A stretch of DNA of 64,000 nucleotides, from the NCBI RefSeq assembly GCF_945957525.1, contig NZ_CAMFLA010000005.1:124001-188000 (forward strand), written 5' to 3'. Below the pieces are notes generated by a model. The model saw nothing but the letters and a program-made list of their open reading frames with translations. It had not been told where the DNA came from and did no database searches. A program made the position numbers and the translations under genes. This document shows, one piece after another, positions 4,922-63,641 of the stretch; positions within the stretch are counted from its first letter, which is position 1; each line of letters opens with the position of its first letter. Source of the DNA: an uncultured Aquitalea sp. (GTDB lineage: Bacteria > Pseudomonadota > Gammaproteobacteria > Burkholderiales > Chromobacteriaceae).

Positions 4922-5854
4922 TCAGGCTGCTTCCAGATAACTGTCGTGAATGGCGCTGCCGAGGCGGTGAATGTCGGCGATCAGGCTGTCCAGCGAGGCT
5001 TCCAGCCCCTCGGCGAAGATGTCGCTGATGTCCGAGTAAGTGAGCCTGGCGCGTATTTCGCTGGCAAGGCGGCGCGCCGAGCGACCGGCCTGGCCTTCCA
5101 CATGCGACAGCACCTGGCTGATTTCCTCGAAGCAGGCGCGCAGGCTGCGCGGCATGTCCGGCCGCAGGATCAGCAGCTCCGCCACCCGTTCCGGGGTGAT
5201 GCGGTCGCGGTAGATGTCGCGGTAGGCCTCGAAGCAGGAAACCGAGCGCAGCAGCGCGGCCCACTGGTAGTAATCGAGGATGTTTTCCGCCTGCGGTTCG
5301 TGATCGCGAATCTGGCGGGTTTTCACATTCAGGATGCGCGCCGTGTTGTCGGCGCGCTCGATGAAGGTGCCCAGCCGCGAGAAGTGAAAGGTATCGTTGC
5401 GCAGCATGGTGCCGTAGCTGACGCCGCGGAACAGGTGCGAACGCTCTTTCACCCAGTCCAGGAAGGCGGAGGCGGTGCGTGCGTCCAGCCCGCGTTTTTG
5501 CCAGTCGCGCATTTCCAGCCAGGTGCCGTTGATCTGCTCCCACATTTCGCCGGTGATTTTCACCCTCACCACGTGGGCGTTCTCGCGCGCCAGACGGATG
5601 CAGTTGTAGATGCTGCCGGGCACGGACGGGTCCAGCGCCAGGTAGTCCAGCACGCGTCCGGCATCCGGCTTCGGCCAACGCGAGAGGAAGTCGGCGGTGA
5701 CGCCGGTGACATCCAGCGGCACCAGCAGATCATCCTGCGAGGATGCGTGCAGCAGCGACATCTGCAGGCTGACGTCCAGCAGGCGTGCGGTGTTTTCAGC
5801 CCTTTCCATATTGCGGGCCATCCAGTACAGGCAATCCGCCATTCTGCTCAGCAT
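4922..5854 (-). CDS. Alpha-E domain protein (DUF403)
   Basis: A 310-residue, all-helical protein of the alpha-E family, which is almost always encoded beside or fused to a circularly permuted ATP-grasp protein. Typical features are an N-terminal MLSRMADCLYWMARNMERAE and a repeated FIERADNTARIL segment around residue 170. The start at 5854 overlaps the stop of the ATP-grasp gene by 7 bases, which implies translational coupling; a longer reading frame extends upstream inside the ATP-grasp gene and is not real. The family's usual length is about 310. A copy of the 10-mer CTTCGGCCAA lies at 5669-5678, read here as Trp-Pro-Lys. Confidence 0.85.
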   Translation of the reverse strand: MLSRMADCLYWMARNMERAENTARLLDVSLQMSLLHASSQDDLLVPLDVTGVTADFLSRWPKPDAGRVLDYLALDPSVPGSIYNCIRLARENAHVVRVKITGEMWEQINGTWLEMRDWQKRGLDARTASAFLDWVKERSHLFRGVSYGTMLRNDTFHFSRLGTFIERADNTARILNVKTRQIRDHEPQAENILDYYQWAALLRSVSCFEAYRDIYRDRITPERVAELLILRPDMPRSLRACFEEISQVLSHVEGQAGRSARRLASEIRARLTYSDISDIFAEGLEASLDSLIADIHRLGSAIHDSYLEAA

Positions 5855-7293
5855 GTCGCGTCCTCCTTCAGGATCCAGGTGTCCTTGGTGCCGCCGCCCT
5901 GCGAGGAATTCACCACCAGCGAGCCTTCGCGCAGGGCAACGCGGGTGAGGCCGCCTGCCACCAGCCGCACTTTGTCGCCCGACAGCACAAAGGGGCGCAA
6001 GTCGATATGGCGCGGCGCGATGCCGGCTTCGACGAAAGTGGGGCAGGTGGACAGCGACAACGTGGGTTGGGCGATGAAGTTGGCCGGGTCGTCCAGAATG
6101 CGCAGCCGGTAGGCCTCGATTTCGGCCTGGCTGGCGGCCGGGCCCACCAGCATGCCGTAGCCGCCCGCGCCGTGGACTTCTTTCACCACCAGTTCCGGCA
6201 AATGCGCCAGCACGTAGGCCAGATCCTCCGGCTTGCGCAGCTGCCAGGTGGGCACGTTGTGCAGGATGGGTTCTTCGCCGAGGTAAAAGCGGATCATGTC
6301 CGGTACGTAGGGGTAGATGGATTTGTCGTCGGCCACGCCGGTGCCCACCGCATTGCAAACGGTGACGCGGCCTTCGCGGTACACCGACATCAGGCCTGGC
6401 ACGCCCAGCATGGAGTCAGGCTGGAAGGCCAGCGGGTCGAGGTAGGCATCGTCGATGCGACGGTAGATTACGTCCACCCGCTGCGGACCGGCAGTGGTGC
6501 GCATATGCACGTGACCGTTCTTGACGAACAGGTCCTGCCCCTCGACCAGCTCCACTCCCATCTGGCTAGCGAGGAAGGCGTGCTCGAAATAGGCGCTGTT
6601 GTACTGCCCGGGCGTCAGTACCACGACGGTGGGGTTGTCCACCTCGACCGGCGCCACGGCGCGCAGGGTGTCCAGCAGCAGATTGGGGTAGTGCTCCACC
6701 GGCGTGATGTCGTGGCGGGCGAACAGCTCGGGAAACAGGCGCATCATCATCTTGCGGTTTTCCAGCATGTAGCTGACGCCGGACGGGGTGCGCAGATTGT
6801 CTTCCAGCACGTAGAAGCCGCCGTCTCGGTGGCGGATGATGTCCACCCCGGCGATGTGCGCGTAAATGCGGCGCGGCAGATCTATGCCCTGCATGGCCAG
6901 CTGGTAGCCGGCGTTGGTGAGGATTTGCTCGGGCGGAATCAGCCCGGCCTTGAGGATGTCCTGCTCGTGATAGATGTCGTGCAAAAAGCGGTTGAGCGCA
7001 GTGACGCGCTGTACGCAGCCGGCTTCCAGTGTTTTCCATTCGGCGGCGGAGATGATGCGCGGAATGGTGTCGAAGGGGATCAGCCGTTCTGCGCCGCTCT
7101 CATCGCCGTATACCGCGAAGGTGATGCCGATCTTGCGGAACAGGGTGTCGGCTTCGTCCTGCTTTTGCCGCAGCCAGTCCAGCGGCGCCTGGTGCAGCCA
7201 GTCGGCGAAGCGGGCGTAGGATGCGCGGGTGGATTGACCGTCGACCAGCATTTCGTCGTAGTGCGACAGGTCCAGTGCCTTGATGGAGTGCAT
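5848..7293 (-). CDS. Circularly permuted ATP-grasp protein (COG2308)
   Basis: 481 residues, cytoplasmic. The segment LEDNLRTPSG followed by SYMLENR (residues 163-180), together with later VVKEVHGAGGYGM, places it in the circularly permuted ATP-grasp group predicted to act as amidoligases that join an amino group to a carboxylate at the cost of ATP. AGGAG lies 7 bases before the ATG. It is the first gene of the cluster with alpha-E, transglutaminase-like and Anbu genes. The substrate is unknown; a small peptide or a peptide tag has been proposed for the family. Confidence 0.85.
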   Translation of the reverse strand: MHSIKALDLSHYDEMLVDGQSTRASYARFADWLHQAPLDWLRQKQDEADTLFRKIGITFAVYGDESGAERLIPFDTIPRIISAAEWKTLEAGCVQRVTALNRFLHDIYHEQDILKAGLIPPEQILTNAGYQLAMQGIDLPRRIYAHIAGVDIIRHRDGGFYVLEDNLRTPSGVSYMLENRKMMMRLFPELFARHDITPVEHYPNLLLDTLRAVAPVEVDNPTVVVLTPGQYNSAYFEHAFLASQMGVELVEGQDLFVKNGHVHMRTTAGPQRVDVIYRRIDDAYLDPLAFQPDSMLGVPGLMSVYREGRVTVCNAVGTGVADDKSIYPYVPDMIRFYLGEEPILHNVPTWQLRKPEDLAYVLAHLPELVVKEVHGAGGYGMLVGPAASQAEIEAYRLRILDDPANFIAQPTLSLSTCPTFVEAGIAPRHIDLRPFVLSGDKVRLVAGGLTRVALREGSLVVNSSQGGGTKDTWILKEDATC

Positions 7294-61430: not shown

Positions 61431-63641
61431 ATGAGCAACGAATCCAAATGCCCGTTTCACCAGACCGCCGGCAACCCGGTGGTAGTCAATGCCCGCTCCA
61501 ACCGCGACTGGTGGCCCAACCAGCTCAACCTCAACATCCTGCATCAGCACGCTCCGGCCTCCAGCCCGATGGATGCCGATTTCGACTACGCCGAAGCCTT
61601 CGGCCAACTTGATTACCAAGCTCTCAAAAATGATCTCAAAGCGCTGATGACCACCTCGCAAGACTGGTGGCCGGCCGACTGGGGCCATTACGGTGGCCTG
61701 TTCATCCGCATGAGCTGGCACAGCGCCGGCACCTACCGCACGGCCGATGGGCGCGGCGGCGCCGGTACCGGCAATCAGCGCTTTGCTCCCCTCAACAGCT
61801 GGCCGGACAACGGCAACCTCGACAAGGCGCGCCGCCTGCTGTGGCCGATCAAGCAAAAATACGGCAACCACATTTCCTGGGCCGATTTGATGATTCTGGC
61901 GGGCAACGTGGCGCTGGAATCCATGGGTTTCAAAACCTTTGGCTTTGGCGGGGGCCGCAAGGACATCTGGCAACCGGAAGAAGACATCTACTGGGGCGCA
62001 GAAAGCGAATGGCTGGCCACCAGCGACAAACCGGGTAGCCGTTATTCCGGCGATCGCCAACTGGATAATCCGCTGGCGGCAGTACAGATGGGCCTGATCT
62101 ACGTGAATCCGGAAGGCCCGGACGGCAACCCGGACCCAGTGGCCTCCGGTCGCGACGTGCGCGAAACTTTCGCCCGCATGGCCATGAACGATGAAGAAAC
62201 CGTTGCCCTGGTAGCTGGCGGCCATACCTTCGGCAAAGCGCACGGCGCGGGCGACCCGACACTGGTGGGGCCGGAGCCGGAAGCAGCCCCGCTGGAAGCG
62301 CAAGGCCTGGGCTGGATCAACCGTTTTGGCGACGGCAAGGGCGAATACACCACCACCAGCGGCATTGAAGGCGCATGGAAACCCAACCCCACGCAGTGGG
62401 ACAACGGCTACTTCGACATGCTGTTCGGCTACGAGTGGGAACTCACCAAGAGCCCGGCCGGCGCGCACCAGTGGGTGGCCAAGGACGTGAAGCCGGAACA
62501 CATGATTCCGGACGCGCACAACCCGGCCAAAAAGCATGCGCCGATGATGACCACGGCGGATCTCTCGCTGCGCTTCGATCCGATCTACGAGCCGATCTCC
62601 CGTCGCTTCCACCAAAACCCCCAAGCCTTCGCCGACGCTTTCGCCCGCGCCTGGTTCAAACTGACCCATCGCGACATGGGACCGAAGAGCCTGTACCTGG
62701 GCCCGGAAGTCCCGGCGGAAGAACTCATCTGGCAAGACCCGGTGCCGGCAGTCGATCACAAGCTGGTGGATGAGATTGACATCGCCGCGCTCAAGGCCAA
62801 GGTGCTGGCCTCCGGCCTGCCGGTGCGCGAACTGATCGCCACCGCTTGGGCATCTGCCTCCAGCTTCCGTGGCTCGGACAAACGCGGCGGTGCCAATGGC
62901 GCGCGCATTCGCCTCGCGCCGATGAAGGACTGGGCCGTCAACGAGCCGCAACAGCTGGCCCGTGTGCTCTCCGTACTGGAAAGCATCCAGCAAGCCTTCA
63001 ATAGCGGTCGCGGCGATGGCAAGCGCATCTCGCTGGCCGACCTGATCGTATTGGCCGGTGCTGCCGGCGTGGAAGCCGCCGCCAAGGCCGGCGGCCATGA
63101 CATCACCGTACCGTTTACGCCGGGCCGTACCGACGCCAGCCAGGCGCAAACCGATGTTGAGTCGTTCAGCGTGCTGGAGCCGCAGGCGGATGGCTTCCGC
63201 AACTACCAGCAACAAGCGTACCGCATCCCGGCGGAGGCCCTGTTGGTGGACAAGGCGCAACTGCTCACCCTTAGCGCCCCGGAAATGACGGTGCTGGTTG
63301 GCGGCCTGCGCGTACTGGGCGCCAATACGGGCAATGCGCAACACGGCGTATTTACCCAGCGGCCACAAGTGTTGAGCAATGACTTCTTCGTCAATCTGCT
63401 GGATATGAATGTGGCCTGGCAGCCGGCGGGCGAGGGGCGGGACCTCTACGAAGGCAAGGACCGTAAAACCGGCCAGCTGAAGTGGACAGGCACCCGCGCG
63501 GATCTGGTATTCGGCTCCAACTCGCAACTGCGAGCCCTGGCCGAGGTGTACGCCCAAAGCGGCGCTCAAGCCAAATTCGTGCGCGACTTTGTCGCCGCCT
63601 GGAACAAGGTGATGAACCTGGATCGTTTCGATCTCAAGTAA
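61431..63641 (+). CDS. katG: Catalase-peroxidase
   Basis: 736 residues from ATG 61431 (GGGAG 7 bases upstream). A heme enzyme that removes hydrogen peroxide. The distal site R93, W96 and H97 ([12 protein letters not shown]), the proximal H265 ([11 protein letters not shown]) and the Trp-Tyr-Met crosslink partners Y224 and M250, spaced as in known KatGs, are all present, and the C-terminal pseudo-peroxidase domain is complete. It is a single-gene unit with a hairpin after it. CTTCGGCCAA at 61598 is read Phe-Gly-Gln. Confidence 0.97.

Follow-up and report, generated by a model that had tools for sequence, protein, structure and literature searches.

A dispersed word with a CCG core as a probable ComP-read DNA uptake sequence in an uncultured Aquitalea sp.

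A 10-base word, TTGGCCGAAG, dispersed through the genome of an uncultured Aquitalea sp., a freshwater relative of Neisseria, is, to judge from sequence comparison, very probably the core of a DNA uptake sequence (DUS) spread genome-wide and read by a ComP-type pilin. The word was noticed in a stretch of 64 kb, here called the window (positions 124,001–188,000 of NZ_CAMFLA010000005.1, assembly GCF_945957525.1; contig C5 of our genome G000), and the original prediction took it for a candidate uptake sequence and, if so, a new dialect outside the Neisseriaceae. The first proposal gains from enrichment over a Markov model and over codon shuffles, from the words of related genomes and from the presence of a ComP ortholog, and loses from nine congeners that lack the word. 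The second stands in so far as the host belongs to the Chromobacteriaceae and the core reads CCG; it has to be refined in that the host falls in the same order as the Neisseriaceae, the word is probably kin to known DUS, and at least three spellings occur in the family. The system is probably of a known kind, an uptake-sequence system that shares its origin with that of Neisseria, and is distinguished by a new core and by its occurrence in a second family.

A recount of the window returned the 19 exact copies of TTGGCCGAAG on both strands that had been claimed, 13 on the + strand and 6 on the - strand, all within 5669–61607; in 100 dinucleotide shuffles the mean was 0.34 and the largest count 2. 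A second allele, GTTTGCCGAA, was also over-represented (13 copies versus 0.64 expected), and TT[G/T]GCCGAA occurs 39 times in total. On our gene calls the coding copies of TTGGCCGAAG are read as Leu-Ala-Glu (5), Phe-Gly-Gln (6), Ser-Ala-Asn (2) and Trp-Pro-Lys (1) and five copies are intergenic, the same numbers as first given; CTGGCCGAAG, said to appear about once, occurs once. Copies in the coding sense lie at 5669–5678 (-), 11801–11810 (-), 31480–31489 (-), 44362–44371 (+), 46019–46028 (+) and 55718–55727 (+), and coding copies in antisense at 9766–9775 (+), 12599–12608 (+), 13223–13232 (+), 19099–19108 (-), 26027–26036 (+), 42782–42791 (+), 43271–43280 (+) and 61598–61607 (-). Intergenic copies are found at 20574–20583 (+), 24021–24030 (+) and 51057–51066 (+), and as the left (27154–27163, -) and right (27172–27181, +) arms of an inverted pair.

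The whole genome (4,045,770 bases in 35 contigs) contains 565 + 593 = 1,158 copies of TTGGCCGAAG, far over the Markov model, compared with 16 + 24 = 40 copies of the reversed word. Counts of 1,368 for GTTGGCCGAA and 616 for GTTTGCCGAA add up to 1,984, one per 2.0 kb; the latter allele has 3–66 copies in each of 60 other genomes searched. In a 464-kb sample, consisting of the window and 400 kb from elsewhere in the genome (416 genes called, coding fraction 0.866), the top 11-mers under the Markov model were GTTGGCCGAAG (127 observed, 3.6 expected) and, for the second allele, GTTTGCCGAAG (54 observed, 2.6 expected). The motif is approximately AGGTT(G/T)GCCGAAG, with G and T alleles, and flank preferences lengthen it to roughly AGGTT(G/T)GCCGAAGVC; the leading A is weaker in the T allele (0.33 versus 0.60). 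Remaining single substitutions are rare in this sample, the modest ones being a last base A (17) or C (12), second T to C (13) and second G to C (9). Spacing is a little more regular than random (standard deviations of 1,500 and 1,347 for means of 1,706 and 1,763). Within the sample the word is absent for at most 12.8 kb (C1:34214–47007). This stretch has a GC content of 0.555, compared with 0.618 for the contig sample; it was considered as an island and rejected, its content being ribosomal-protein operons.

A word this frequent might be a by-product of codon usage or of a favoured peptide, and Leu-Ala-Glu does account for 71 of the 121 coding copies of GTTGGCCGAA in the 464-kb sample. Shuffling synonymous codons with the proteins kept left 8.6 copies (maximum 15, n = 60), and a stricter codon shuffle, more favourable to this explanation, still left 24.8 (maximum 33, n = 40). 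The 121 copies observed exceed every shuffle. The word is moreover read in five reading frames, and of the 158 copies in the sample 36 are intergenic, in excess of the 21.2 expected, with one more straddling a gene end. We count the codon or peptide explanation as already refuted and leave it next to no probability.

In samples of nine word-bearing genomes, all 23 pairs of neighbours no more than 25 bp apart are inverted and none is direct, and several have A and T runs beside them. The inverted pair in the window forms a predicted hairpin at 27152–27183 on the - strand, with a 13-bp stem and a 6-base loop followed by TTTTTT (z = -6.2 versus shuffles), 3' of the gene at 27227–27856 (-), and looks like an intrinsic terminator. 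Both this resemblance and the inverted arrangement of every close pair are consistent with a terminator or other RNA-hairpin element dispersed over the genome. The bulk of the copies argues otherwise, 121 of 158 being within coding sequence, and few stand in close pairs (neighbours within 60 bp make up 6 pairs in a total of 268 copies); we consider such an element highly improbable as an account of the word.

It is also conceivable that the word serves chromosome maintenance in the manner of Chi, KOPS or a site for a nucleoid protein, since words of that kind are likewise dense and genus-specific. A weak tendency with GC skew was seen, with 86 + and 101 - copies in regions of negative skew and 45 + and 36 - copies in regions of positive skew. 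Co-orientation with skew nevertheless amounts to 146 of 268 copies (54%), without marked bias and unlike the strong replication-direction strand bias of Chi and KOPS, although this is a weak test in which skew takes the place of replichores. The absence of the word from congeners, the different spellings among genera of one family and the tracking of word presence with ComP loop sequence (see below) also argue against a maintenance signal, which we consider very unlikely.

Aquitalea and Pseudogulbenkiania belong to the Chromobacteriaceae, order Neisseriales, and the genome studied here groups with Aquitalea, outside the Neisseriaceae; its PolA is 84.0–84.7% identical to that of five other Aquitalea and 80% identical to that of Pseudogulbenkiania. 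Relatives were grouped as Aquitalea (g1; palustris, magnusonii, aquatica), Pseudogulbenkiania (g2; ferrooxidans 2002, subflava and a metagenome-assembled genome), Crenobacter oryzisoli with strain JH1-16 (g3), Crenobacter luteus with G021 (g4), Gulbenkiania mobilis (g6) and Paludibacterium denitrificans (g10). Of the 37 Chromobacteriaceae genomes searched, 15 bear the word in this or a kindred spelling (...CGAA, ...CGAG or ...CGCA) and 22 do not. TTGGCCGAAG itself has 823, 692 and 184 copies in g2, 719 and 203 in g3, 934 in g6 and 386 in g10. The related spelling GTTGGCCGCA, found de novo and counted genome-wide, reaches 1,871–2,057 copies in all five genomes of group g5, and GTTGGCCGAG reaches 1,590 and 1,940 copies in both g4 genomes. 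Conservation in relatives, one of the checks proposed at the outset, came out in favour, the same word or a kindred one being present in further genera of the family; nine congeners lack it. Spelling follows phylogeny, with one spelling throughout g5 and throughout g4; the exceptions are our genome, set against its word-free congeners, and C. oryzisoli. The latter (G020) has just 203 copies of TTGGCCGAAG and 165 of GTTGGCCGAG, where its relative JH1-16 has 719 and 55, and is perhaps losing the system or changing its spelling. When 399 genomes were drawn from the whole order, among them 13 Chromobacteriaceae, only our genome (1,368) and G014 (1,245) were rich in GTTGGCCGAA, the next having 47.

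De novo searches of word-free genomes yielded no uptake-like word in 200 kb of G001, 160 kb of G004, 120 kb of G024 or 100 kb each of G032 and G034; in smaller samples (60 kb of G002, G005, G007, G008, G017 and G023, and 40 kb of G006 and G015) none was uptake-like among the matches listed. Word-free genomes G003, G009, G025, G028, G029, G030, G033 and G036 were scored for four patterns only. G024 and G033 show a slight excess of GTTGGCCGAG, with 92 and 85 copies where the reversed controls have 21 and 17. Words in 160 kb of word-free G016, with z up to 32, the level of our own word in 140 kb, were rejected as a local tandem array with a 15-base unit (L181, ~4300–6600, contig C1), in which all 20 copies of AATGCACCCT lie on one strand.

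The search for a ComP-like minor pilin, a further check, gave a ComP ortholog at C9:75189–75596, adjoining polA and outside the window, whose family is present in all 15 word-bearing genomes. Its best solved relatives are Neisseria ComP: a profile search of the PDB with the ComP-ortholog profile placed three ComP entries first (5hz7, 2nba and 2m3k), and the nearest fold was again that of Neisseria ComP. The Pfam model ComP_DUS scored our ortholog at about 41–41.9 bits and that of P. ferrooxidans at 64.3 (cut-off 27.3); the model is not specific, matching four pilins of our genome, and NCBIfam gave the ortholog no ComP name. Most word-bearing orthologs have a loop similar to FK..STKWPxLP of Neisseria ComP, and word presence goes with ComP loop sequence. 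Of 30 orthologs, 26 have two cysteines and 4 have a third, located in the N-terminal helix; with two conserved cysteines and never four, a second disulfide is absent, as is the DD region in its defined form. The competence machinery was searched for ComEC and pilins. A ComEC gene is present in our genome, and Pfam PF11773 (ComGE) had 0 matches in 61 genomes.

The reader of an uptake word might instead be another minor pilin (those on contigs C12 or C14, or a FimT-like one) and not the polA-linked ortholog. Three of the four ComP_DUS matches score above the ortholog, the ortholog lacks the second disulfide, and FimT is described as binding DNA in Legionella (PMC12616744; published sources are cited here from excerpts). 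The C12 pilin was at first favoured, its best matches among the fetched loci being word-bearing, and a wider search overturned this: four word-bearing genomes have no match to it at 1e-12, and word-free genera are among its nearest relatives. For the C14 pilin, two congeners without the word have counterparts of 78–81% identity. Searched singly against the PDB, the C12 and C14 pilins returned general pilins, ComP not being among the matches, and at ≥ 123 bits the ComP ortholog alone reaches 15 of 15 word-bearing genomes. A different pilin as reader is an unlikely choice, if a more serious one than the alternatives considered above. The C12 locus (L088, 5941–9599, -) encodes, by resemblance, a ComP_DUS-type pilin and FimU/GspH-like, PilW-like, PilX-like (601 aa, very large) and PilV-like proteins.

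If the ComP ortholog is the reader, this type IV minor pilin would bind word-bearing double-stranded DNA at the cell surface, probably through its alpha1-beta1 and beta1-beta2 loops. On retraction, the pilus would carry the bound DNA in for recombination after transport by ComEC. The preference would be for DNA of the same lineage because only that lineage bears the word densely, and biased uptake would in turn keep the word dense. We infer DNA binding, preferred uptake, competence and the role of ComP over that of other minor pilins.

Several observations weigh against this model. Nine congeners within Aquitalea are without the word, with only 15–31 copies of TTGGCCGAAG. Word sites at two orthologous loci are not clearly better kept than other 10-mers (4/5 and 4/6 versus 0.70; 2/9 and 2/2 versus 0.33). 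The GTTTGCCGAA allele is not enriched between genes (11 of 81 copies, 10.9 expected), and neighbours within 60 bp in our own sample show no excess (6 versus 9.3 by chance). ComP orthologs exist in word-free genomes too, and the contrast in loop sequence was found after looking and reflects few independent events. Three other minor pilins of our genome outscore its ComP on ComP_DUS (81.5, 56 and 53.7 versus 41.9 bits). Four cysteines were found in 0 of 30 orthologs, although DUS-specific binding is said to require both ComP disulfides (PMC12616744), and the CTG that is needed in N. meningitidis (PMC3630211) is CCG here.

Nine-base matches fill in the remaining sites of the window. TTGGCCGAA occurs on the + strand with A as next base at 8410–8418, 34679–34687, 37379–37387 and 37976–37984, and with C at 21476–21484 and 58294–58302. 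TTTGCCGAA, the second allele, lies on the - strand at 1608–1616, 1833–1841, 2801–2809, 4561–4569, 15512–15520, 17027–17035, 29194–29202 and 62229–62237, and on the + strand at 16883–16891, 44921–44929, 48599–48607, 54056–54064, 56725–56733 and 61298–61306. Elsewhere in the window, an Rfam S15 leader (RF00114, 39.6 bits, cut-off 39.5) at 39267–39391 (+) overlaps the beginning of a short called gene (39341–39604), probably rpsO.

According to the excerpt of Frye 2013, eight Neisseriaceae DUS dialects all keep CTG, this core is required for transformation in N. meningitidis, and no obvious DUS was seen in Laribacter, Lutiella nitroferrum 2002, Pseudogulbenkiania NH8B or two Chromobacterium (PMC3630211). 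NCBI lists Lutiella nitroferrum under P. ferrooxidans; P. ferrooxidans 2002 (G010), one of these five genomes, holds the 823 copies of TTGGCCGAAG given above. A 2024 survey of Neisseriaceae describes, in the part cited, possible new dialects with CTG at positions 6–8 (PMC11316581). No report of a DUS in the genera studied here was found among the literature matches listed, preprints and most subscription papers being outside the scope. Our word and AG-simDUS agree at 9 of the 12 positions, and so do our word and AG-mucDUS; among random 12-mers 0.9% do as well, among shuffled ones 1.2%. Given this match and the shared order, the word is probably related to known DUS and not unconnected with them.

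On an evolutionary reading that we rate as no better and no worse than its negation, uptake words and ComP are older than the split between Neisseriaceae and Chromobacteriaceae. The ancestor would have had a AGGTTGGCCGAA-like word and a one-disulfide ComP, and the Neisseriaceae would have gained their CTG core and DD region later; word and reader would have co-diverged into clade spellings, and the system would have been lost in most Aquitalea and three other genera, leaving altered-loop ComPs or none. If the uptake system is real, self-specific DNA uptake would reach a second, largely environmental family, contrary to an earlier report of its absence there, and a CTG core would no longer be common to every DUS. 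Surveys so far, whose reported words all share CTG, may have missed such systems. The family offers at least three new spellings, each with ComP orthologs to match, as well as several relatives without the word in which ComP has different loops, so that how ComP reads its word can be tested by comparing and swapping purified proteins.

Compared with known systems, the word is most like the Neisseriaceae DUS: 10–12 contiguous, over-represented bases, about 2,000 copies in one genome on both strands, close inverted pairs, of which the one in the window looks like a terminator, and a spelling set by clade. It begins with AGG and ends with GAA, its two alleles within one genome recall the Simonsiella muelleri DUS, and the ...CGCA spelling parallels king3DUS ...TGCA. 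The A at +10 of Neisseriaceae DUS is A in the CGAA and CGCA spellings and G in two genomes (G012 and G021). The differences are the core at +6 to +8, which is CCG and not CTG in each spelling found, and hosts in the Chromobacteriaceae, not in the Neisseriaceae as now defined. The Neisseria-type word GCCGTCTGAA has 1,863–4,285 copies in 5 of 5 genomes of f44 g53, taken as Neisseria; the counts in two further genera of f44 are 2 and 4, and three genomes of the present set have 3–11. The ortholog resembles Neisseria ComP (PMC4906244, excerpt) in its best PDB profile matches, its nearest fold and, for most word-bearing members, the FK..STKWPxLP loop, and differs in having two conserved cysteines, without the second disulfide and four-cysteine DD region. 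With the Pasteurellaceae uptake signal sequence (PMC12616744) the word shares its short, dispersed form, hundreds to thousands of copies and inverted pairs; it is unlike that sequence in having neither a GCGG core nor, in a position profile to +24, AT-rich downstream segments.

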